Part shown: positions 4,892 through 17,718 of the stretch, piece after piece
Layout of the letters: every line of letters begins with the position of its first letter
Position numbering within the stretch: the first letter of the stretch is position 1
IMG/VR virus record: IMGVR_UViG_3300018040_000021
Span: 1-23,344 of that record
Source: a virus
Length of the DNA stretch: 23,344 nt
Direction: 5' to 3' (one strand)
Notes under the pieces: model-generated
Told to the model about the DNA's origin: nothing
Databases searched by the model: none
The model's input: the letters and a program-made list of their open reading frames with translations, nothing else
Translations under genes and position numbers: made by a program

Positions 4892-5641
4892 ATGTCTCCG
4901 ACAGCAGCACAAGGAACAATCGGCAAGCAGATGCCGTCGCTCGTCCCCGGCGGGCAGGTGGACATGAACTCGCTCATCGGCAACATCAAGGATGCGATTA
5001 CGGGCAATTACTACTCGACCGTCAAACTGGCGGCGGGTACGACTCTGGCGGCGTTCTACAACCTGTTCAATGCGGGTTTGGGACAGCCCGATCCGTATCC
5101 GCTCTCGACCGTTACGGGCGCGGCGCCCATTTTGACGAAGGTCGAAACCAACGTTTTGGTCGCGGCCAACTTCGGGTTGACGCCTCCCTACGACATCGTC
5201 ATCGACTCGGTGGGCGTGTACGTCCATCCATTCGTGTCCAAAAACGATCTGGACATTCTGACGCTGTACAGCTACTTCGAGTTCGCCATCCTCGGCAAAG
5301 TCCAGTGGGATGGGAAACTCGAAAGCTACCCCGCCGGCATGGGGTATTCGGGATTCTCGACCCAGACGAACGAGTCCGGGTGGCAGATGGGCAACCCCGA
5401 TCCCAACGCGAAAAAGCGCTTTGGGCACTTTGGCAAGTACCTGAGCCCCAATCTCACCTTCTCCTGGCCGATCTATTTCCCGCCCACTAGCGGGCCGGTC
5501 GGCGGCACGTATCCGCCCACGGCGGCGTCGGGCACGCCGGCGGCGGCCACTCTCAGCGCCTACGCGAATACCCCGACGCCGGGGCATGGCGCCTGGATTC
5601 GCGGGCACATGTTCGGCATTCTGGGCCGGCCCGTTTCCTAA
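4892..5641 (+). CDS. Putative major structural (capsid-like) protein, 249 aa
   Basis: The start has one of the best ribosome binding sites of the window (AAGGAG, 4879-4884) behind a leader with a strong hairpin, both fitting a highly expressed gene. The protein has a mainly beta composition (TNVLVAANFGLTPPYDIVID, GVYVHPF, LTLYSYFEFAILGKVQWDG), Pro/Gly turns and few Cys or charged clusters, ending GAWIRGHMFGILGRPVS. There is no HK97-type signature, no scaffold-protease and no coiled-coil delta domain. Length is in the range of single-jelly-roll capsid proteins of small tailless viruses, but I cannot assign a fold from sequence alone. Its position first in a series of beta-rich proteins makes it the best candidate for the main shell protein. 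Confidence 0.5.
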   Translation: MSPTAAQGTIGKQMPSLVPGGQVDMNSLIGNIKDAITGNYYSTVKLAAGTTLAAFYNLFNAGLGQPDPYPLSTVTGAAPILTKVETNVLVAANFGLTPPYDIVIDSVGVYVHPFVSKNDLDILTLYSYFEFAILGKVQWDGKLESYPAGMGYSGFSTQTNESGWQMGNPDPNAKKRFGHFGKYLSPNLTFSWPIYFPPTSGPVGGTYPPTAASGTPAAATLSAYANTPTPGHGAWIRGHMFGILGRPVS

Positions 5642-5731
5642 ACTGGCGGTTGGTTGGCTGTCTGCCGTTCGGATGGGGCCGCGCTTTCGAGTGCGGCCCT
5701 TCCGGGCTTGTCTACTGTGGAAAGGGAAGCC

Positions 5732-5899
5732 ATGGATCCGAATCACATACTCGCCCCGTGGGGGGATGCGTACCAGACGCCGTGCTCGTGCGGCGGCGCT
5801 TCCGCGTCGGCATGGATCGCGGAGCATCCGTGGCTTTCCCTTGCCATTGCCGCGGCGGTGGCGTACCTGCTCTTTTCGGAGGGTGAAGGTGCCCGATGA
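5732..5899 (+). CDS. Small single-pass membrane protein, 55 aa
   Basis: ATG 5732 is chosen over a longer frame beginning at 5654 because AAGGGAAG sits just upstream and the upstream extension looks noncoding. The product has CSCGG near residues 19-23, then one membrane helix (WLSLAIAAAVAYLLF) and a short acidic end. It overlaps the next gene by 11 nt. It looks like another small virion or lysis membrane protein. Confidence 0.55.
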   Translation: MDPNHILAPWGDAYQTPCSCGGASASAWIAEHPWLSLAIAAAVAYLLFSEGEGAR

Positions 5900-6110
5900 C
5901 CCTGAAGTTTCCTTGCGGTTCTATATTGAGCGGATCATCGACGAGCGGCATAAGCTCTATCAAGCGCAATTCGCGGAAAGCGAAAAGCGCGTCATGTTGG
6001 CGCTGGAGGCAAAGGCCAAGGACTCTACCGATGCGCAATGGTCGATAGGCACGGTTCTTTCTATCCTGGTGGCATTGATCGCGTTGGCGGCGGTGATTTT
6101 CAAACGGTGA
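5889..6110 (+). CDS. Coiled-coil plus C-terminal membrane helix protein, 73 aa
   Basis: GTG 5889 is the most likely start, overlapping the previous gene. Residues 8-48 are a charged amphipathic helix (YIERIIDERHKLYQAQFAES, EKRVMLALEAKAKD) and residues about 53-70 are one membrane helix (IGTVLSILVALIALAAVIF) ending KR. A helix ending in a tail anchor is common in phage membrane proteins, including some holin partners. Together with the next gene, which has the reverse order (membrane helix then coiled coil), it may form a complex. Confidence 0.6.
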   Translation: MPDDPEVSLRFYIERIIDERHKLYQAQFAESEKRVMLALEAKAKDSTDAQWSIGTVLSILVALIALAAVIFKR

Positions 6111-6114
6111 AACG

Positions 6115-6336
6115 ATGAACCTCAACGATTGGGCGGCGGTGGCTTCCTTGGTGGCTTCGGTGGTCGCGTTATTCGCCGTTCTGCGGGGTTCCTTCATCGT
6201 GGGAAAGATTTATCAGCAGTTTGAAACCGTGCTTGAAGACGTTGCGGACCTGAAAAAACATCGGACGCAGTTCGACGAACAGCTGACAAAACTGCTGGCG
6301 CGGTGTAAGATGTGTTTGGATGAGGGAGCGGACTAG
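6115..6336 (+). CDS. N-terminal membrane helix plus coiled coil protein, 73 aa
   Basis: ATG 6115 starts 5 nt after the previous stop, with GTGAAACG just upstream as a weak ribosome site. Residues 6-24 are hydrophobic (WAAVASLVASVVALFAVL); residues 30-66 are a likely coiled coil (IYQQFETVLEDVADLKKH, FDEQLTKLLARC). Two Cys occur in the tail (CKMC). It mirrors the topology of its upstream neighbour. Function is unknown; a virion membrane or lysis complex is possible. Confidence 0.6.
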   Translation: MNLNDWAAVASLVASVVALFAVLRGSFIVGKIYQQFETVLEDVADLKKHRTQFDEQLTKLLARCKMCLDEGAD

Positions 6337-7290
6337 ATGACAAGCGCCATGCTGCACCAGGCCGATGTGGTCCTTTCGCGCTGTGGCCGGCCTCTGCCTC
6401 CGTTTCCGGGCGTTCGCGTCGTTCCCATCCCCGAGTCGTTCAAGCTCTGGGCGACGTTTCCTGCGTCTCCCTTTACGAATCAATCGACCGTTCCAACGCA
6501 GATCACCGGCGACACCACCTGGATGCTGCGCGCGATCTCCTCTTACGTCACTGCGCCGGTGGGGATCTCGCTCAACTTCCAGTTCCCCGATGGCAAATTT
6601 CTGCTGCATGACATTTCGGACATCCGGGCAATCGCGGGGTACGGTTCCTGGAAATATCCGCTAACGAAAGAGCGGGCTTGTCCTCCCGGTACCAAGATCG
6701 TGGCGACGGCGTATGATTCGACGCCTGCCACCGCGCAAGCTGTCCCGCTGCTTCTCGAAGGGGCTTACTATTTTCACGTCAAAGATGCGGGGGGCTCGAA
6801 GGCGCTTTCTTTGGTTTCTTCCTTGCCCCGCTACACTCCTGGCGACAATCAAAACATCCTGGCGCCCTGCTGGCAGTTCGGGCAAGGGCCGCAAACACCC
6901 GAAGGGTATCAGGACGATCCGGGCGGGTTCACCTATTCGTCCTTGCAACAGGCGATTGACGTTGGTTCTACCACGGCGAAAAACGCCACGCTCGAAGTCC
7001 AAATCGAGACGGCCTCGGATTTCGTTGTGCGAAATCTCTGGTTCGCAGTCTCCTCGGATGTGACGGCTACGGGAAACGTGCTGGTCAAGGTCCGGTCGTC
7101 AAAAGGCTATGCCCTGACGGACGATTACGTGCTCTACAACCTCATCAACGGCGTGCCCCAAGTGAAAGACTGGAATCTGAAGGCGGGGGACGCCATCGTT
7201 GTGGATCTGGCCCTGGTGGATTACTCAGGCACGGGCAACGTGTACGTGCAAGTCTTCGCAAACGGCGCGAAGCGGAGGAAAGCGGCGTGA
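6337..7290 (+). CDS. Tandem beta-sandwich structural protein, 317 aa
   Basis: ATG 6337 directly follows the previous stop. The protein appears to contain two repeats of one beta-sandwich pattern. Repeat 1 (about 53-150) runs from TGDTTWMLRAISSYV through a central Phe/Pro strand set to ACPPGTKIVATAY and LLLEGAYYFHV. Repeat 2 (about 222-315) runs from ETASDFVVRNLWFAV through LKAGDAIVVDLALVDY to GNVYVQVFANGAKR. The same signature (acidic-Asp-aromatic, strand with Arg, CP-G-S/T, final beta strand) is found in the genes at 7287, 7744 and 14256, so this is a paralogous family. A two-domain jelly-roll-like capsid or vertex protein is my inference; a tail-associated adhesin is the alternative. Confidence 0.55.
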   Translation: MTSAMLHQADVVLSRCGRPLPPFPGVRVVPIPESFKLWATFPASPFTNQSTVPTQITGDTTWMLRAISSYVTAPVGISLNFQFPDGKFLLHDISDIRAIAGYGSWKYPLTKERACPPGTKIVATAYDSTPATAQAVPLLLEGAYYFHVKDAGGSKALSLVSSLPRYTPGDNQNILAPCWQFGQGPQTPEGYQDDPGGFTYSSLQQAIDVGSTTAKNATLEVQIETASDFVVRNLWFAVSSDVTATGNVLVKVRSSKGYALTDDYVLYNLINGVPQVKDWNLKAGDAIVVDLALVDYSGTGNVYVQVFANGAKRRKAA

Positions 7291-7763
7291 ACTACCGGCC
7301 TCAATTCGTTCCGGCTCCCGCGCCTCAAGGCTTCCACGATGAAGAGTTCGTACACTACTTCGACGCCGTCTCCACTCCGGTTCTAGGTGCTGTTCTTGCG
7401 GCGGGCGCCACGCAAATGAACGTGACCCTCCAACTCGAGAACGACGCCGATTTCATCGCTCGCGGAATCAGGATAATCGGAACGGCGCGGTTTCAGTTCC
7501 GCGAACCCTTTGGAGATAAACTCCTGTCCGAAGACCTCCCCGCGACCCCTCCGGTCCTCAGGCACACGTATCAGGCGGGGGGCCTCGATCTCACACCTTC
7601 GGGAACTTTGGAGCTTCCCACGGTCCCGATTGAACCGGAAATCTTCTGCCCTGCCGGATCGGCCTTCCAGGTGAACATTTACAATCCCGCCGCGGTTCCC
7701 GCAAACGTGGCGGGGTTCATCGCCATTTTCGGAGTGAAACGCTATGCCAAGCCCTCCCACTGA
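7287..7763 (+). CDS. Single beta-sandwich structural protein, 158 aa
   Basis: GTG 7287 overlaps the upstream TGA as GTGA. An N-terminal Pro-rich segment (NYRPQFVPAPAPQGFHDEEF) leads into one domain: LQLENDADFIARGIRIIG, a long middle with acidic and Pro turns, then EIFCPAGSAFQVNIYNP and the closing strand GFIAIFGVKRY. The gene at 14256 is a clear paralogue in the N-terminal two thirds. It overlaps the next gene by 20 nt. I infer a virion component; the fold is not proven. Confidence 0.6.
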   Translation: MNYRPQFVPAPAPQGFHDEEFVHYFDAVSTPVLGAVLAAGATQMNVTLQLENDADFIARGIRIIGTARFQFREPFGDKLLSEDLPATPPVLRHTYQAGGLDLTPSGTLELPTVPIEPEIFCPAGSAFQVNIYNPAAVPANVAGFIAIFGVKRYAKPSH

Positions 7764-8664
7764 GCAATGGCGACACCAAGACTACGTGTTTTCGGCTCCC
7801 TCGCTTGCGGCCGGGGCGCTCTTACAGGCGATTCCGTTCCAACTCGACGCGGATTATCCCTTTGAGCTGCATGGGATCGCCGCGAGGGTACCGTACAACT
7901 CGACCGTGGGAGCGAACTTCGGGACTCAGGCTGGACTGAACCTTATCTCGATGCGGTGGTCCGGGCCTACTCAGAATTACCGGCAAGACGCGCTTGTACC
8001 CCTGCCCCTGTTGCTTGGTCCGTATTTCGGACAGGTGGGCAATCCCAGACCCGTCTACCCTGCGCAACGCTGGCCGCGCAGTGGCGTCATTAACCTGGAT
8101 CTGCAAAACAACGGGCCGAATACCATCACCGGGTTGCAAATCGTCTTTAGGGGCGTGAAGGTTGGACCCATGGGGTCTTGGAATACCTACACCTACCCCG
8201 CGAAGGTGACGCGAACGTTGCCGTTCTGGTATCCCTCGGGCGCCGGTCCTGCGATCCCTACGCTGACGCTTGGGGTCACCCAGAACCTTACCAATGTTCT
8301 TTTCACGCCCGATAACGACTCGGATTTCGTTCTGTGGTTCGGACAGGCGGGACCGGATACCGGCACATACGAAGTGTTTTTTACGATGAAAGACGACGGG
8401 TTCAAGCCCTACTCGAACGCCCCGGTTCATGCGGATATTCTGTTCGGGCGCTCCGGGTTCCCGGCTGCGTTTCCCGTGGGCGCGTCCTCCTACGTCGCTC
8501 CGGTAGGCCCTGGAGCCTCACAGCCGGGTCTGTTCGTGCCGGAAATCTACCTCCCGAAAAACAACCGCATGTTTTTTGACGTGCAACGAAGCGATGCGGC
8601 CTATGCGGGGGCGGGGAGCGTAACGTATCCTTTAACGCTCGGCGGAATGAAGGTGTTTTCATGA
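7744..8664 (+). CDS. Tandem beta-sandwich structural protein, 306 aa
   Basis: The frame begins inside the end of the preceding gene. Repeat 1 (about 10-150) has PFQLDADYPFELHGIAARV and closes with TITGLQIVFRGVKV; repeat 2 (about 170-306) has FTPDNDSDFVLWFGQAG and closes with PLTLGGMKVF. This two-fold repeat in about 300 residues is the size expected for a double jelly-roll capsid protein, though the fold is only inferred. Near its end, GLFVPEIYLPKNNRMF is encoded by a 47-bp segment that reappears, read in another frame, at 11735-11781. The next gene overlaps as ATGA. Confidence 0.55.
   Translation: MPSPPTEQWRHQDYVFSAPSLAAGALLQAIPFQLDADYPFELHGIAARVPYNSTVGANFGTQAGLNLISMRWSGPTQNYRQDALVPLPLLLGPYFGQVGNPRPVYPAQRWPRSGVINLDLQNNGPNTITGLQIVFRGVKVGPMGSWNTYTYPAKVTRTLPFWYPSGAGPAIPTLTLGVTQNLTNVLFTPDNDSDFVLWFGQAGPDTGTYEVFFTMKDDGFKPYSNAPVHADILFGRSGFPAAFPVGASSYVAPVGPGASQPGLFVPEIYLPKNNRMFFDVQRSDAAYAGAGSVTYPLTLGGMKVFS
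8529..8575 (+). repeat. 47-bp dispersed repeat, copy A (3' part of the tandem beta-sandwich gene)
   Basis: This segment encodes LFVPEIYLPKNNRMF in the host gene and is repeated with one mismatch at 11735-11781. Since it fits the beta-sandwich protein here, I take this as the donor copy. Confidence 0.85.
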
Positions 8665-8957
8665 CGCGCGCCGATGGCACTCAGACTACCCGGCCGTCTC
8701 AACAGGAGCGCTCCGCAACGCGGGCCGTCGATCTCTACAAAGGGATGGATACCGGACGCTTCGACCCGGAACGGTCGGACCACGTACACGGAAGGGCGGG
8801 GGCTCCGGCGTTGCTGTTCGACCGCATGAAGGGGGTTAAGGTTTTCGGGTGTGAGGCGTGCGTGTTCGGGGAGCGGTACGAGCATACCTGTGGACTGCCG
8901 GAGCCGGATGCACCAATCTTCACCTTCACGTACGCGGAACTGGAGGCGTCATGCTAG
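8661..8957 (+). CDS. Small Cys/His-containing protein, 98 aa
   Basis: It starts at ATG 8661 overlapping the previous TGA. The N-terminal half is polar and charged (TRADGTQTTRPSQQERSATR). The C-terminal half contains CEACVFGERYEHTCGL, a Cys-x2-Cys ... His-x-Cys arrangement that could bind zinc or form disulfides, then a Pro/acidic tail. Family is not recognised. Its place between two structural-type genes suggests a virion or assembly role. Confidence 0.55.
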   Translation: MTRADGTQTTRPSQQERSATRAVDLYKGMDTGRFDPERSDHVHGRAGAPALLFDRMKGVKVFGCEACVFGERYEHTCGLPEPDAPIFTFTYAELEASC

Positions 8958-9526
8958 GCCCTCTCTGGTTAGATCCTCTCATCCGGGCGACCTGGGGCCA
9001 GTACAACCCCTTGGTGCTGGCGCAACTCGATAGCCTGGTGGCGGAAGATTGCTACTCGCCCAAAATCTACCGCATCCCCGATCCTCAGACGGAAGTCGTG
9101 CCAGCGGGCGGCTATGTGGAGTTTGGCTTGCAAGTGACTCCCGGTTCCCTCCTCTATGGCTTCCTGGTACCGTGCAACCCCACAACCGGAGTACCGGCGG
9201 CGTTCACGTTTCAACTGGAAGACCTCAGCACGGGGCATGCGTTCTTCGATGAACCGATACCCTCGGTCCTGCTTGCCAACTACCATGCGGAAGTCTTAGA
9301 CCCCTACCAGGCACAAATGTCGTCGTTCTGGAACTTGCTGAACGCGGTGTACCCGGTGGTTGGCTCCGGTTTGTTCCGGGCTCAGATCCAAAGCACCGCC
9401 GCGGCGGGCTCGTCTCCGGTGAGAATCGAAATTGGGATTGGCGCTTTGCGACCGAAAAGGCGCGGGCCGAGCAGGAAGCCGAGCCGGAGCCGTTGCCCGT
9501 TGGAGGTGTCCGAATGTCGCAAATAG
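8951..9526 (+). CDS. Beta-rich structural protein, 191 aa
   Basis: ATG 8951 has GGAGGCG just upstream and overlaps the previous gene. After a helical N-terminus (PLWLDPLIRATWGQYNPLV) the protein has beta strands with a recurring pattern (VEFGLQVTPGSLLYGFLVP, FTFQLEDLSTGHAFFDEP, LFRAQIQS, VRIEIGIGALRP) and a basic tail (RPKRRGPSRKPSRSR). It belongs by composition and position with the beta-sandwich group, but similarity to the 7287 family is weaker. The 3' end overlaps the next gene by 13 nt. Confidence 0.55.
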   Translation: MLGPLWLDPLIRATWGQYNPLVLAQLDSLVAEDCYSPKIYRIPDPQTEVVPAGGYVEFGLQVTPGSLLYGFLVPCNPTTGVPAAFTFQLEDLSTGHAFFDEPIPSVLLANYHAEVLDPYQAQMSSFWNLLNAVYPVVGSGLFRAQIQSTAAAGSSPVRIEIGIGALRPKRRGPSRKPSRSRCPLEVSECRK

Positions 9527-10113
9527 CCTCGAATCGCACTGGTGCCGCGCCGCGCCTAGTGACCGGACCTGAAGCCGTCAAGCAGATGCACTCCCGTAAC
9601 CAGACAGAGCAACGGCGGGATCAATGGCCGTATCCCTGGCTCTGCCCTCCCGAGTCGGCCTTCCCGGTTTTCCGGCAAGACGTCATCGTGGCGCCCGCCG
9701 TAAACGCCTTAACCGAGGTTTTGGAATACACCGTACCATCGGGGTTTCAGTTCTGCTTGGAGGCGATTGTTCAGATGTACTCCGGCTCAGGTTACGTTCC
9801 TGGAGATGGGGACATTCAATGGACACTGGACGTGGACGCGCCTATCGGGGTGGCATCGCTTGAAGGCTTCCCCCTGGCCGGCCTGAACTTGATTTACACG
9901 CCCCTCGGCGGCTTCACGGGAACGGCGGCGGCGGGCGGGATCGTAAGCCCGTGGAAGTTCCCGAAGCCGTTTATTCTGAAACCCAATCAGGTTTTGCGGT
10001 CCAAAGTTTTCCTTCCGACTTTGAATCCCCTGTCGGCGGCTCCGAATGCGATCTCGGCCGGTTTCCCCAATCTGTTCATTTCGGTGTTTTCGGGGTTCAC
10101 ATACCCAGTGTAG
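9514..10113 (+). CDS. Beta-rich structural protein, 199 aa
   Basis: ATG 9514 is preferred over an upstream TTG because GGAGGTG lies just upstream. The first 45 residues are polar (QIASNRTGAAPRLV), followed by a single beta domain: TEVLEYTVPSGFQFCLEAIV, IQWTLDVDAP, FILKPNQVLRSKVFLP, and the closing strand LFISVFSGFTYPV. The pattern resembles a jelly-roll minor capsid or spike-base protein. It is the last of the beta-rich run that began at 6337. Confidence 0.55.
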   Translation: MSQIASNRTGAAPRLVTGPEAVKQMHSRNQTEQRRDQWPYPWLCPPESAFPVFRQDVIVAPAVNALTEVLEYTVPSGFQFCLEAIVQMYSGSGYVPGDGDIQWTLDVDAPIGVASLEGFPLAGLNLIYTPLGGFTGTAAAGGIVSPWKFPKPFILKPNQVLRSKVFLPTLNPLSAAPNAISAGFPNLFISVFSGFTYPV

Positions 10114-10121
10114 GAGGTTTT

Positions 10122-10484
10122 ATGGCTCGGTTGACCAAAGCGGACAGACGGAGGGCGGCATTGAAGGGATGGCGGAACCGGAAACGCGCGAATCCTCGCC
10201 GCAAGCCTGGCAGTCGGCGTTCGACGGGCCGTAGCGTGCCTTCGTCCGGGTGGAGTTCGGCGGCGCATCAGCGTGCGGTGTGGGATCTCGGTAGACAACT
10301 TCGGTTCCGCGATTCGTCGCTCTCTAAAGAGCAATCGTGGAAGTTGGCGGCGAAAGAACTTGAAGCCCCTGAACGCGAGAGATTTCCGAGACATTTTCAG
10401 AATCCTCCCTCTGGCTTCATCCCCTGCAAGGCTGTGAAGATCACCCGGAATGGTGGCAAAGTAGAGGTACGAATCAGGAAATGA
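10122..10484 (+). CDS. Basic protein ending in the repeated RNPP-type module, 120 aa
   Basis: ATG 10122 follows an excellent ribosome binding site (AGGAGGT). Residues 1-50 are strongly basic (MARLTKADRRRAALKGWRNR) and could bind nucleic acid. Residues about 50-90 are a likely helical unit (HQRAVWDLGRQLRFRDS). The last 27 residues, from NPPSGFIPCKAV to VEVRIRK, are the same module that ends the genes at 10856 and 11158 and are encoded by an 84-bp repeat. The stop overlaps the next ATG. Function is unknown. Confidence 0.65.
   Translation: MARLTKADRRRAALKGWRNRKRANPRRKPGSRRSTGRSVPSSGWSSAAHQRAVWDLGRQLRFRDSSLSKEQSWKLAAKELEAPERERFPRHFQNPPSGFIPCKAVKITRNGGKVEVRIRK
10401..10484 (+). repeat. 84-bp C-terminal module repeat, copy 1
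   Basis: Identical over all 84 bp to 11078-11161. It runs from an Asn-Pro-Pro codon triplet to the stop codon and overlaps the next start, so the repeat carries coding end, stop and coupling signal together. Confidence 0.95.
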
Positions 10485-10711
10485 AACTAGCGATTCATCT
10501 GCGGCCGCACTTTTTCAAGGGAAGGATTGCCTCATACCACCTTTTTGCTGAACTGGTGGGGGACGGCCTTTCAATCGCCTTGAACGGTAGCGATGAGTAC
10601 GGGACTACGGTTGGTGTTGAGGATGCGGATACCCTAATGCGGCTTACGGGGCAACAAATCACCTTGCTGCCTCTCGTTGCTTGCGATTCTGTAGGAACAC
10701 CCACGGTATGA
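10481..10711 (+). CDS. Small hypothetical protein, 76 aa
   Basis: It is coupled by ATGA to the previous gene and again to the next. The sequence is a mix of beta strands and helices (KLAIHLRPHFFKGRIASYHL, LVGDGLSIALNGSDEYGT, VEDADTLMRLTGQQITLLP). No motif is recognised. Placement in an accessory cluster of small genes suggests host-takeover or virion accessory function, but this is weak inference. Confidence 0.55.
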   Translation: MKLAIHLRPHFFKGRIASYHLFAELVGDGLSIALNGSDEYGTTVGVEDADTLMRLTGQQITLLPLVACDSVGTPTV

Positions 10712-10866
10712 CGCCTCATAGGGAACTATGGACAGGGCCAGTAAGCCTCGCGGATTTACGCAACGATCCGGGCATAAAACAGGCGCTTGAGCGGGTGATT
10801 GCAACGGGCGGCTACGTTCCCGCATCGGAGAGGTTTGGAGTAAAGCGGTACGCCAATGGCTGCTAA
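10708..10866 (+). CDS. Small hypothetical protein, 52 aa
   Basis: ATG 10708 overlaps the previous TGA; the end overlaps the next gene by 11 nt. The product is short and helical (LADLRNDPGIKQALERVIAT) with the end FGVKRYANGC. The FGVKRY string matches the closing strand of the beta-sandwich protein at 7287, but over too few residues to claim relationship. Function is unknown. Confidence 0.5.
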   Translation: MTPHRELWTGPVSLADLRNDPGIKQALERVIATGGYVPASERFGVKRYANGC

Positions 10867-11161
10867 AAGCGGTGCTGGGCAGGTCGTTACTCGCGCTTTT
10901 GAGATCACAGATCGGGATGGCATGTTCGCTTGGGTGGTCCGTCGTACCGATGGGAAATACGCACTAGCGGCGCATACCGATGTTTCTGAGGGAGACGCTT
11001 TAGAAGATGCGGTGGTAGAAGGGACGGTCTGGCATAAACGGCTTGCCGCTGTGCGGCGCGAGGTTGGAATGAAGCGCAATCCTCCCTCTGGCTTCATCCC
11101 CTGCAAGGCTGTGAAGATCACCCGGAATGGTGGCAAAGTAGAGGTACGAATCAGGAAATGA
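10856..11161 (+). CDS. Small protein ending in the repeated RNPP module, 101 aa
   Basis: ATG 10856 lies inside the preceding gene's end. Residues 1-70 make a compact alpha/beta unit (VVTRAFEITDRDGMFAWVVR, YALAAHTDVSEGDALEDAV). After MKRNPP begins the 27-residue module (GFIPCKAVKITRNGG, VEVRIRK) shared with two neighbours. The module thus joins a different N-terminal unit in each gene. It is coupled to the next gene by ATGATG. Confidence 0.65.
   Translation: MAAKSGAGQVVTRAFEITDRDGMFAWVVRRTDGKYALAAHTDVSEGDALEDAVVEGTVWHKRLAAVRREVGMKRNPPSGFIPCKAVKITRNGGKVEVRIRK
11078..11161 (+). repeat. 84-bp C-terminal module repeat, copy 2
   Basis: All 84 bp match copy 1; the identity with copy 3 extends upstream to cover AAGCGC as well, so copies 2 and 3 share the longer KRNPP start. 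Confidence 0.95.
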
Positions 11162-11448
11162 TGCCTCAAGCACAATCCGGTGAGCAAGGCTCGGCGGTGA
11201 CTGGGGCTCGTGGCACATTCAGAAGCGCCAAACCACGGACTGTCGGGTCCCTGGTGCACGACTTCAAAGGCAACACTTGGAGAGTCGTTACGGAGCCGGT
11301 TTTAGTGTCCGGTTTCAACGGCTCCTCGTGGTACGAATTCCACGTGGAGCGTGAGCCAAAGCGCAATCCTCCCTCTGGCTTCATCCCCTGCAAGGCTGTG
11401 AAGATCACCCGGAATGGTGGCAAAGTAGAGGTACGGATTCGCAAGTGA
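11158..11448 (+). CDS. Small protein ending in the repeated RNPP module, 96 aa
   Basis: The start is ATG 11158 or 11161 (tandem ATGATG overlapping the upstream stop). Residues about 20-67 (FRSAKPRTVGSLVHDFKGNT, WRVVTEPVLVSGFNGSSWYE) resemble a small beta unit. The final module (from KRNPP on) equals that of the two preceding module-bearing genes at the protein level; its last 14 nt differ from copies 1 and 2 only by synonymous changes plus the last Lys codon. Confidence 0.6.
   Translation: MMPQAQSGEQGSAVTGARGTFRSAKPRTVGSLVHDFKGNTWRVVTEPVLVSGFNGSSWYEFHVEREPKRNPPSGFIPCKAVKITRNGGKVEVRIRK
11365..11448 (+). repeat. 84-bp C-terminal module repeat, copy 3
   Basis: The first roughly 70 bp are identical to copies 1 and 2. 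The last 14 bp carry five substitutions that leave the encoded RIRK and the stop unchanged, indicating selection on the peptide or a conversion boundary. Confidence 0.95.
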
Positions 11449-11458
11449 GGTAACGAAT

Positions 11459-11785
11459 ATGTCTTGGTCGGTATCGGCGGTAGGCAAGGCTTCGGCGGTC
11501 GCGGCGGCGGTTGAAAAGCAGTTTTCGGATATGGCGGCGTACCCATGCCCGGAGCCGGAAGAGACAGCGAAGCAGCACGCGCGGCAAGCTCTCGGCGCAT
11601 TGTTGGCGGGGCATACCAGCGCGGATTTGGCTGTGAAGGTTGCGGCTAGCGGTTCGCAGAATCGCGCCACGGGGCAACCCGGCGTTTGCAATACGTTCAA
11701 CGTCAGCCTCGATCTTCTTTACGGTTTCGTGGAATCTGTTCGTGCCGGGAATCTACCTCCCGAAAAACAACCGCATGTTTTATAA
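11459..11785 (+). CDS. Small phage-type protein with a copied, out-of-frame C-terminal end, 108 aa
   Basis: ATG 11459 has GAGGTAACG upstream. Residues 1-92 form a recognisable type of small phage protein: MSWSVSAVGKASAVAAAV, a helix with PEPEETAKQHARQAL, then strands (DLAVKVAASGSQNR, FNVSLDLLYGF). Similar small proteins occur in other phages, where the end is near this last strand. Here the last 17 residues (SVRAGNLPPEKQPHVL) come from the 47-bp repeat shared with the gene at 7744, but read in a different frame. The current C-terminus is therefore a new sequence created by insertion or illegitimate recombination. Function is unknown. Confidence 0.6.
   Translation: MSWSVSAVGKASAVAAAVEKQFSDMAAYPCPEPEETAKQHARQALGALLAGHTSADLAVKVAASGSQNRATGQPGVCNTFNVSLDLLYGFVESVRAGNLPPEKQPHVL
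11735..11781 (+). repeat. 47-bp dispersed repeat, copy B (3' end of the gene at 11459)
   Basis: It matches 8529-8575 at all but one position. The host gene reads it in a frame different from the one used by the beta-sandwich gene and stops directly after it. Confidence 0.85.
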
Positions 11786-11833
11786 CCCGGAACAAGGGCA
11801 GGGTGGAAATCAGAATCAAACGGCGGTAGGCCC

Positions 11834-12331
11834 ATGCGCCTGGTGGTCGTCACTCCCTTTCAGCGCAATCTGACAGACCGGGCGCAACGCTACAGAGCTA
11901 ACCGGGAAGCTCCCCAAGGCCCAAAACACTGCGTATTCTGCGGCGCAACCAAAAAACTCATGGTGGGCCATTTGGACGGCCACGAATCGCATAACGAGCC
12001 GGAAAACCTGGCCTGGACATGCCGGCCCTGCAATACCTACCATGGGAACGCGCTAAAGAAGGCGCGGATGGGCAAGAGAACCCGCCAGTTCAATCCAACG
12101 AGGTCCGGGGGCGCTCAAAGCCTCGGGGAGTGGATGCAAGCCGTTGGAGCGATCCGCCCTCATCAGTACTCATATCGCAATGCGGACTTGGCGGCTGGTT
12201 CCACCATGAAGACCTCGGATGCGGTTGCCATGATCCGGGCTACGCCTCAGTACAAGCGGCAAGAATTTGCGGCGCAACTTGGAAAGCACAAGGGCGGGCG
12301 GCGCGGCGGGGGTTCGGAAGTGCTTTTCTAG
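11834..12331 (+). CDS. HNH-type zinc-finger protein, 165 aa
   Basis: Residues 33-70 carry C33-x2-C36, H46 with H50/H53, N58-L, then C63-x2-C66-N67, the layout of the zinc-binding HNH/WHH-like fold (CVFCGATKK, GHLDGHESHNEPENLAW, CRPCN). Such phage proteins are DNA-binding or nicking endonucleases, often near packaging or as homing enzymes; the catalytic His assignment is not certain here. The N-terminus is basic and the C-terminal half (SLGEWMQAVGA, KTSDAVAMIRATPQYKRQEF) is helical and basic. The ribosome binding site is weak. The next feature is the promoter of a noncoding RNA. Confidence 0.65.
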   Translation: MRLVVVTPFQRNLTDRAQRYRANREAPQGPKHCVFCGATKKLMVGHLDGHESHNEPENLAWTCRPCNTYHGNALKKARMGKRTRQFNPTRSGGAQSLGEWMQAVGAIRPHQYSYRNADLAAGSTMKTSDAVAMIRATPQYKRQEFAAQLGKHKGGRRGGGSEVLF

Positions 12332-13368: not shown

Positions 13369-13452
13369 ATGATCCATGAGCTTGAAATGATTCTTTTGGT
13401 CGGCTCGTTTTCTTTGCTCATGGTCATACTCTTTGGCCGGAGACGGCGATAA
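13369..13452 (+). CDS. Tiny single-pass membrane peptide, 27 aa
   Basis: ATG 13369 has GAGGGG immediately upstream. The peptide is one hydrophobic helix (MILLVGSFSLLMVILFG) between an acidic start (MIHELE) and RRRR. This topology (acidic out, basic in) is typical of small phage membrane peptides such as toxin-like or holin-regulator peptides; function is not known. Confidence 0.5.
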   Translation: MIHELEMILLVGSFSLLMVILFGRRRR

Positions 13453-13456
13453 TCCC

Positions 13457-13503
13457 CCTTCCTGGGAGCCTCTAGGACGCATCGCCGGGGGCTTCCGAAT
13501 GGT
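13457..13503 (+). repeat. Perfect 47-bp intergenic direct repeat, copy A
   Basis: Identical to 14175-14221. It contains GGGAGCC and GGCTTCC, which can pair (7 bp, one G-T) around a 19-nt loop, so the transcript could fold. Both copies lie upstream of leaderless promoters. Confidence 0.9.
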
Positions 13504-14121: not shown

Positions 14122-14174
14122 GGATTTCGCGGACAGGGGAGCACTTGAACGGTTTGGAAATGGTCGATATTTAG

Positions 14175-14221
14175 CCTTCCTGGGAGCCTCTAGGACGCAT
14201 CGCCGGGGGCTTCCGAATGGT
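14175..14221 (+). repeat. Perfect 47-bp intergenic direct repeat, copy B
   Basis: Identical at every base to 13457-13503. It falls at the end of the apparently frameshifted gene and just before the promoter of the 14256 gene. Confidence 0.9.
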
Positions 14222-15885: not shown

Positions 15886-16734
15886 GTGATTTCCTTGCTT
15901 TCGCATACCGGCGCTGCTTCCTCTGCCGGCGGAAACATCACTACGACTCCAATCAGCACCCTAACGGCCTCGGTGATTTTCGCCTATGCCGTCGCGGAGG
16001 GAGCGCAAAATCCAGTTTTTTCCGACTCCCTTGGAAACGTCTGGAAGGCTTTAACAACCCAAAGCGCTCCCGGTCATGAACAGGGCGTGCTCTATTACTG
16101 CGTTGCTCCGATCACGGGAGCATCCCACACGTTCATCCTCTCGGCGTCCAACGTTTCCTACCCGGCGCTCTGCGTAGCAGCCTTCACGGGTTTGACAACC
16201 TCGGCTTTTCTCGATGCCCAAAACGGGGCGGTCACCGCTTCGACCGTCTCCACCTTCCAGCCGGGAAGCGTAACCCCTGCGGTCAACGGGGAATTGCTCA
16301 TCGCCGGTCTGGGCTTCAACGGCGGCTCCCCTCCGATTACGGTTTCGATAGACTCTGGGTTTGCGATTACCGATCAGTTCTACCTTGCGAACTCCTACGG
16401 CTGCGCTCTGGCCTACTTAGTGCAAGCGGTCGCTGCGCCGGTCGATCCCACCTGGACGGTGGCGGCCAGCGGGACAATCGAAACCCCGGTTGCTTCCCTT
16501 GGGGCTTTCGATCCGATCACCCTGGCGAATGCTCGCGTAGCTCAATCTTCCCTGGACGTAATCACCCTGTCAAACCCTCACGCGCAGGTCTTTCAATCCT
16601 GCCTCGACATCATCACCATTCCCGCCGTGGTGGGCGTGCAAATCATCCTCCGGGGAGTGAAACGGCTTCAGTCCGGTCCCTCTGAAACGCTGCAAGACAT
16701 TCAAGGGGCGGCGCACGTCAAAAGGGCCGTATGA
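15886..16734 (+). CDS. Beta-rich adhesion/appendage protein, 282 aa
   Basis: GTG 15886 has GAGGCGGGC just upstream. Residues 1-205 are a Thr/Ser/Gly/Ala-rich beta domain (TASVIFAYAVAEGAQNP, GVLYYCVAPITGASHTFIL, TPAVNGELLIAGLGF). Residues 215-245 hold two short repeats (NARVAQSSLDVITL and PHAQVFQSCLDIITI), a pattern I recall from phage structural proteins. The last 33 residues, starting GVQIILRGVKR and ending HVKRAV, are shared with the next gene. It overlaps the next gene by ATGA. Receptor binding is likely by context. Confidence 0.6.
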   Translation: MISLLSHTGAASSAGGNITTTPISTLTASVIFAYAVAEGAQNPVFSDSLGNVWKALTTQSAPGHEQGVLYYCVAPITGASHTFILSASNVSYPALCVAAFTGLTTSAFLDAQNGAVTASTVSTFQPGSVTPAVNGELLIAGLGFNGGSPPITVSIDSGFAITDQFYLANSYGCALAYLVQAVAAPVDPTWTVAASGTIETPVASLGAFDPITLANARVAQSSLDVITLSNPHAQVFQSCLDIITIPAVVGVQIILRGVKRLQSGPSETLQDIQGAAHVKRAV

Positions 16735-17453
16735 CGATTACCCGGTTTTGGATGTACGGCACGGTGGGGCAAACGTACTGGGGTTACGTTGAAGTGTCCG
16801 GGGGCGTGGCTCCGTACTCCATCTCGATTGATGTTCTGCCTGCTGGCCTCGCCTTAAACCCGGTTCCTGTCAATATCTTCGGCGGCGTGCCTGGTGGAGA
16901 TTTCGAGTTTACAGGAATCCCCTCGGCGCCCGGAACTACGCCGGTAAACATCACGGCGGTTGATTCCTTGGGTAATACCGCGACTTTTTCAGACGTTTTC
17001 GTAGTGAACACGCTTGAAGCCCTATACATGGCCCTTCCTCCGGCTATGATTGGGGCGCCTTATGCTTTCCAGTACAACGATGATTTCGCGGACGCCATTT
17101 TCATTTTGGCCTTCGGGCATCCGGGCGTACATCCGTACGCCTATTCGACTTCCCCCCCTGTGATTGACGGCCTATTTATGTACCCTACGGGGCTTCTGAG
17201 CGGCGCGCCTACCTTCGCGCTGGCTCCGGGTCAAATCGGCGTGGGTTACATCGTGGCGGTCATCGTGGACGCAAACGGGGTGAATGTAGGAAACGCCACG
17301 TCAAACCAAATTGCGTTTTTCAACGTCCCTCCACCAATCCCTGTTATAGGCGTCCAAATCATCCTCCGGGGGGTCAAACGGTACCGTAGTAGTACTCCAT
17401 GCCCGGAATTGCAGGAAGCCAACGAGTTGCCTCACGTCAAAAAAGCGGTATAG
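16731..17453 (+). CDS. Ig-like-domain appendage protein, 240 aa
   Basis: Two bacterial Ig/cadherin-like domains are suggested: about 8-92 (YVEVSGGVAPYSISIDVLPA, GLALN, FTGIPSAPGTTPVNITAVDS, TATFSDVFVV) and about 95-200 (YMALPPAMIGAPYAF, LLSGAPTFALAPGQIG, YIVAVIVDANG). The last 34 residues begin GVQIILRGVKR and end HVKKAV, matching the tail of the upstream protein, which suggests that both attach to the same partner through this tail. The promoter of the next gene lies inside its 3' end. Confidence 0.6.
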   Translation: MTITRFWMYGTVGQTYWGYVEVSGGVAPYSISIDVLPAGLALNPVPVNIFGGVPGGDFEFTGIPSAPGTTPVNITAVDSLGNTATFSDVFVVNTLEALYMALPPAMIGAPYAFQYNDDFADAIFILAFGHPGVHPYAYSTSPPVIDGLFMYPTGLLSGAPTFALAPGQIGVGYIVAVIVDANGVNVGNATSNQIAFFNVPPPIPVIGVQIILRGVKRYRSSTPCPELQEANELPHVKKAV

Positions 17454-17460: not shown

Positions 17461-17718
17461 ATGGAAACCCGCCAGAGGCTTTACAGCTTCATCGAAGTAC
17501 GCTATCGGAACGGGCAAAAAGAAACCTTCCCGTCCAATTACCGCTTCAAAACCGACGATGCCAGTAACCTTTGGGTCTGCGATCAGGAAGGCCCGTTGTA
17601 CGTGCGAAGCGGGGTGGCGGGGATTACGCTTGTCGAGGTGGAGGTGGCGTCATGGCAAGAGGGCTGGGCGGTGAAAGGACAGGTCATCGCCCGAAGACGG
17701 GTGGAGGTGGCGTCATGA
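17461..17718 (+). CDS. Small protein with copied glycosyltransferase-linker tail, 85 aa
   Basis: The native part (about residues 1-64: RQRLYSFIEVRYRNGQKETF, DDASNLWVCDQEGPLYVRSG, GITLVEVEVAS) looks like a compact beta protein that could have ended at VEVAS. Then follows QEGWAVKGQVIARRR, encoded by the 45-bp segment also found in the glycosyltransferase gene, and a second VEVAS with the stop. An 18-bp direct repeat (17637-17654 and 17700-17717) flanks the inserted segment. The stop overlaps the next ATG. Function is unknown. Confidence 0.6.
   Translation: METRQRLYSFIEVRYRNGQKETFPSNYRFKTDDASNLWVCDQEGPLYVRSGVAGITLVEVEVASWQEGWAVKGQVIARRRVEVAS
17637..17717 (+). repeat. 18-bp direct repeats flanking the 45-bp insertion
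   Basis: GGTGGAGGTGGCGTCATG occurs at 17637-17654 and again at 17700-17717. The left copy precedes and the right copy follows the segment shared with the glycosyltransferase gene; the right copy supplies the C-terminus, ribosome site and start region of the next gene. Confidence 0.85.
17656..17700 (+). repeat. 45-bp dispersed repeat, copy B (inserted in the 17461 gene)
   Basis: It matches 2580-2624 except for one base and keeps the same reading frame. It sits between two copies of an 18-bp sequence, as if inserted with duplication of the target. Confidence 0.85.

Follow-up and report, generated by a model that had tools for sequence, protein, structure and literature searches.

A short basic module carried by unrelated small genes in three genomic slots of an uncultivated virus lineage

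Tagged genes in the window

The window, that is, the whole stretch of DNA analysed here, is the whole of a viral contig of 23,344 bases, and the module copies, relics, patch and slot genes described below as part of it lie on its plus strand. Searching it for repeats yielded a single three-copy family of 90 nt, located at positions 10395-10484, 11072-11161 and 11359-11448, and each of the three copies forms the 3' end of a different gene. Copy 1 of the module (10401-10484; NPPSGFIPCKAVKITRNGGKVEVRIRK followed by a stop codon) terminates gene p1 (10122-10484), whose basic N-terminal part, or head, is of a type (MARLTK...ALKGWR) that also occurs in module genes of two related contigs, G001 and G005. 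A small untagged gene (10481-10711), the start of which overlaps the p1 stop codon (ATGA), separates p1 from p2 (10856-11161), which starts with the sequence ATGGCTGCTAAA, typical of the slot termed A below, and ends in copy 2 (11072-11161; KRNPPSGFIPCKAVKITRNGGKVEVRIRK followed by a stop codon). The p2 stop in turn overlaps (ATGATG) the start of p3 (11158-11448), which ends in copy 3 (11359-11448). Further downstream lies gene 11459 (11459-11785), whose N-terminal part is weakly related to sequence located behind the HNH gene of the related contig L035.

A sequence-only reading of this DNA had proposed that the three genes share an ending of about 84 bp while their N-terminal parts are unrelated. 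Both the repeat family and the absence of any mutual blastp match at E<1 between the heads of p1, p2 and p3 bear this out, and the latter result rules out that the three genes are paralogues over their whole length. Copies 1 and 2 (10401-10484 and 11078-11161) are identical over 84 bp including the stop codon; without the upstream Lys-Arg codons the module occurs for the third time at 11365-11448, and the sequence AAGCGC (Lys-Arg) immediately ahead of it is common to copies 2 and 3. As that reading had also stated, copies 2 and 3 encode the same amino acids: they are identical over 77 nt and then differ at five positions, all of them silent and all within the last 13 coding bases. The probability that all five differences fall into one terminal 13-nt stretch by chance is about 3.5e-5, indicating that a copied tract has its boundary there and that the difference did not build up gradually, and plain divergence of copy 3 can be dismissed on the same grounds. 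Judged by its sequence, copy 3 thus looks like a patchwork of a recently copied front and an older module end. The suggestion of recent copying or gene conversion is therefore well founded, given the 84 identical base pairs and the tract edge in copy 3.

Distribution, slots and exchange of heads

Starting from gene 4892 of the window, the related contigs G001 (36.5 kb) and G002 (38.5 kb) were found, and then G003 (40.0 kb), G004 (41.8 kb) and G005, a 39.5-kb contig binned with a Bryobacterales bog MAG. Direct terminal repeats of 30, 127, 116 and 123 nt in G001, G002, G003 and G004, respectively, suggest that these four genomes are probably complete, and either circular or circularly permuted. 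When the whole viral collection was scanned with a DNA pattern for PxG[FW]xPxxAVKIxR, matches were obtained in this lineage only and L035 (12.7 kb) was added, while a second pattern for the other half of the module brought up no further contigs in the same collection, and a strict DNA pattern for the module gave no match. All genomes compared are metagenomic and stem from an uncultivated lineage of peat and soil, and the genes of the related contigs are mechanically called open reading frames backed by conservation. The single MAG contig, G005, hints that the host might possibly belong to the Acidobacteria.

A profile of the module detected 12 intact copies and one relic across seven related viral contigs (three and the relic in the window, two each in G002, G004 and G005, one each in G001, G003 and L035), and according to the blastp table the 12 carriers possess nine different heads. 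The module is thus exchangeable, as had been proposed, and the predicted variety of genes joined to it was found, but within one virus lineage and not in phages generally. No match to the module was obtained in 50,697 phage records or in a plasmid collection, a sequence of such shortness being one for which more distant relatives may be missed. Similarly, genes 4892 and 7744 and the module had no tblastn match in annotated phages, and a search with the whole of p3 found nothing, since the module alone is shared and is short. Among 257 genomes, three others from the same order gave weak module-like matches (E 0.0016-0.006 per genome), which were taken as chance. The tagged genes and heads tested matched no Pfam or PHROG family at its cut-off or with a convincing E-value, and in G001-G005 (36-42 kb) none of the genes could be recognised as a Walker-A packaging ATPase, terminase or polymerase. 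One G001 protein, by inspection probably that of the 354-aa gene L013:1336-2397, has a strong match to the Pfam ice-binding family (E 4.6e-56).

Wherever the conserved genes 4892 to 11834 are present, the contigs are colinear across them, and the module genes are restricted to three syntenic slots among these genes. Slot A, between the homologues of 7287 (7287-7763; a conserved predicted beta-sandwich protein) and 7744 (7744-8664), holds module genes in G001 and G005, and slot B, between 7744 and 8661 (8661-8957), holds them in G002, G003 and G004; both slots are closed in the window. Slot C, between the conserved gene 9514 (9514-10113) and the HNH endonuclease-like gene 11834 (11834-12331), is occupied in the window, G002, G004, G005 and L035. 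The HNH-like gene is conserved at the border of slot C in 7/7 contigs and might promote recombination there. Near the end of the conserved gene 8951, the window has an insertion of 18 codons (9449-9502; RPKRRGPSRKPSRSRCPL) which is absent from 6/6 relatives.

The MARLTK...ALKGWR head is found in slot C in p1 and G005, and in slot A in G001. A Ser/Thr/Gly-rich linker, TATSTKATTTGNKTGTSTGG, is common to carriers of G001, G005 and G002, and in G002 it follows a different head than in the other two. In slot B of G002, G003 and G004, related modules are joined to unrelated heads, the modules of G002 and G004 being 86% identical in DNA while their heads lack any match. These alignments indicate that domains are exchanged around a fixed module. 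L035 and G002 share 90-96% DNA identity around slot B. L035 has no slot-B gene; its junction sequence is CCAGC-ATGAG-CATTCG, where G002 has CCAGC-ATGAG-gene-ATGAG-CATTCG. The G002 cassette of 457 bp extends from start to stop, and ATGAG flanks this clean indel on either side. Slot C of these two viruses contains different genes between matching start and stop regions.

With the slots thus defined, the window locus can be read as rebuilt. The segment upstream of p2 (10834-10870) comprises the end of a 7287-type gene (FGVKRYANG) and the start of a module gene; it matches the slot-A junction of G001 at 27/28 nt, and the corresponding G005 junction is very similar to it as well. This is a slot-A flank, although slot A itself is closed in the window, and p2 most likely derives from a slot-A locus. 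A fourth, broken module copy, consisting of the 3' half, is located at 11782-11829 (ITRNKGRVEIRIKRR followed by a stop codon; profile E = 4.5e-4). Its position is that at which the slot-C modules terminate in G002 and G004, a few bp ahead of the ATG of the HNH gene, and its RR(R)-stop ending is the same as theirs. Joined to it is a 59-bp patch (11735-11793) which is 90% identical to 8529-8587 inside gene 7744 and which lies out of frame in gene 11459, replacing the 3' end of the latter. From this arrangement, the patch appears to have overwritten the upstream half of the relic module. In the simplest order of events, the ancestral slot-C gene would have been p1 carrying a relic-type module; a tagged gene of slot-A type (p2) would then have inserted into slot C, cutting off the old module and leaving it as a relic, and the displaced p1 would have acquired its present module anew, in a form that does not differ from the p2 copy. 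The renewed presence of an in-frame module in p1 suggests that it is of importance to this gene. No direct match to these events was found in the literature on short-patch recombination.

Character of the module and other repeats

The module comprises 26 residues with the consensus [KR]RNPPxG[FW]xPxxAVKIxRxxGxVxVRIRK and has a net charge of +6 to +8 in most carriers, and all tagged proteins are basic (pI 10.1-12.0). The alternating AVKIxRxxGxVxVRI pattern is probably that of a two-stranded beta-hairpin. Between viruses, the DNA of the module has changed mainly at silent positions, as in copy 2 compared to the slot-A module of G005 (pS 0.61, pN 0.05) and in the slot-B modules of G002 and G004 (pS 0.30, pN 0.08). 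Together with the exclusively silent changes between copies 2 and 3, this strongly indicates purifying selection at the protein level. Its description as a C-terminal tag holds only in part: in 11 genes it is found at the C terminus or close to it, one of them, in G004, continuing with a basic tail of 10 residues, but in L035 it is internal, and behind it come about 70 residues, with a basic linker, and a second small domain. The internal copy and the tail argue for a movable domain rather than a strictly terminal tag.

The junction ahead of the module, [KR][KR]NP, occurs 22 times in 210 conserved open reading frames compared to 1.4 times expected from shuffling (about 16-fold). Three different C-terminal domain families begin with it, and it also lies ahead of such conserved domains in genes 826 and 3945; by its distribution it looks like a general domain junction of these viruses. 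Among the carriers, the variants QNPP, SNPP, NPGGPP and RRNAPK are found.

Other repeated elements were observed in the window. Two adjacent beta-rich genes (15886-16734 and 16731-17453), one with a borderline match to the Ig-like He_PIG family, have different N-terminal parts and the same C-terminal module, GVQIILRGVKR...HVKKAV, which is unrelated to the 84-bp one and is found at the end of genes in G001, G003 (two) and G005 too. A 57-bp repeat (93%; 13447-13503 and 14165-14221) encodes SWEPLGRIAGGFRMV, which ends a G001 protein (31256) as well and may be another movable piece. A 50-bp repeat (96%; 2578-2627 and 17654-17703) encodes GWAVKGQVIARRR in a glycosyltransferase-like gene and at the end of gene 17461. 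Finally, a promoter-like intergenic element, TACTTGCGC with TATAATC or a variant thereof about 17 bases further on, is present at about 12340, 12756, 14744 and 18759.

Possible role of the module and comparison with known systems

We tentatively favour, at somewhat less than an even chance, the reading that the module is a shared docking or packaging tag for accessory proteins of the particle. The module would bring unrelated small proteins to one common partner in the assembling particle, for which the inner face of the capsid, a core protein or the packaged DNA are candidates, in analogy to the capsid targeting sequence of T4 internal proteins discussed below; the carriers would reside in the virion. 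Their genes come and go in the slots as complete cassettes, from start to stop, which are joined where ATGA starts and stops overlap, and heads are swapped ahead of the module and short stretches copied between modules. The slots themselves are probably part of a structural operon. The 7287 family (7287 and a paralogue) is predicted to form a beta-sandwich (pLDDT 71.6), which is consistent with a structural gene cluster. With regard to the jelly-roll capsid protein of single jelly-roll viruses, chains of the membrane-containing viruses HHIV-2 and HCIV-1 are among the Foldseek/VIA-align matches of the 7287 model (Z 6.5-6.7); all matches lie at Z < 8 and would reflect a common beta-sandwich arrangement only. 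The AlphaFold model of 4892, a candidate capsid protein, has a pLDDT of 28, at which we make no claim on its fold, and searches of PDB sequences returned nothing useful.

The main rival to a docking tag is a small DNA- or RNA-binding beta-hairpin whose carriers would work on nucleic acid of the virus or the host inside the infected cell, without having to enter the particle. The basic charge of the module suits plain nucleic-acid binding equally well, several heads are very basic themselves (+18 to +20 in the MARLTK...KGWRxR type), and the module of L035 has a small domain on each side, as is usual for an ordinary domain. However, the heads of p2 and p3 are nearly neutral, and the genes are situated among conserved, probably structural genes and not beside replication genes, so that we consider this explanation possible but on balance doubtful. 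Docking from the other side, with the module anchoring decoration or spike proteins to the outside of the capsid, would fit the proximity of the slots to the predicted beta-sandwich gene and the Ser/Thr/Gly-rich linker ahead of the module in three carriers, which could be a stalk. It is nevertheless unlikely, as most heads are small, very basic domains that do not resemble receptor-binding proteins, and the adhesin-like proteins of these viruses end in the other, GVQIILRGVKR-type module. We regard it as quite improbable that the [KR]RNP junction is a processing signal, cut by a viral or host protease to free the module or the head at maturation: the enrichment of the junction and its position at the start of three domain families would agree with such a role, but an Asn-Pro linker accounts for the enrichment as well, the junction is variable, and no protease was recognised in these genomes.

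A recombination seed or selfish sequence without protein function, spread by conversion and perhaps aided by the HNH enzyme, might be suspected from the identical 84-bp copies, from several other short copied patches in the same contig and from the HNH-like gene beside slot C in all relatives. It is very improbable, as the module is always in frame with its gene, and the silent-only differences between copies 2 and 3 and pN far below pS between viruses largely refute it. The contig is metagenomic, and duplication of one module by the assembler might thus be considered; this is scarcely credible for copies in three different in-frame genes, one with a diverged end, accompanied by relics of slots A and C, the more so as p1 shares synteny with the corresponding gene of another virus and six other, independently assembled contigs contain the module.

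Returning to the docking tag, which in view of the internal copy in L035 and the tailed one in G004 would not have to be strictly terminal, it might be speculated further, though we consider it rather doubtful, that an undescribed virus lineage, with Acidobacteria as possible hosts, loads its particle with rapidly exchanged small proteins, for example anti-defence or DNA-organising ones, by means of a basic hairpin tag; the structural operon would contain slots dedicated to such cassettes, and genes that have lost the tag would be tagged anew. If the module is indeed a virion tag, every gene carrying it would encode a predicted protein of the particle in these uncultivated viruses, and proteins that are delivered to host cells could be sought in the slots. 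The exchange of heads between near-identical viruses and what appears to be the re-tagging of p1 offer a direct view of a signal that is kept while its cargo is exchanged.

No direct match to a shared-tag system of this kind was found in the literature. The L035 module has a strand-turn-strand pattern similar to that of Paratox (PF24313 / phrog_2133), aligned over 18 residues with E = 0.035 and 14.2 bits at a cut-off of 27 bits, and there is no other sign of kinship. Phage tailspikes and adenovirus fibres combine a shared anchor domain with an exchangeable functional part, their receptor-binding heads being located outside. The conserved docking part and the exchangeable part would be similar here, whereas the heads are small and mostly basic. 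In phage T4, the capsid targeting sequence (CTS) is N-terminal and is removed by the prohead protease. The T4 internal proteins IPI-IPIII are diverse small proteins that have only this short sequence in common, contact the packaged DNA via lysines, and, in T4-type phages, differ between related phages with respect to the carriers (PMC3012670). As in that system, a short segment is common to otherwise unrelated proteins of one virus. In contrast to the CTS, the module is located at or near the C terminus or internally, is longer and basic, has no sequence relation to it, and belongs to a virus group without a recognised terminase. We thus view the T4 CTS as the closest functional analogue of the module, by analogy and not by homology, and do not claim membership in that system.
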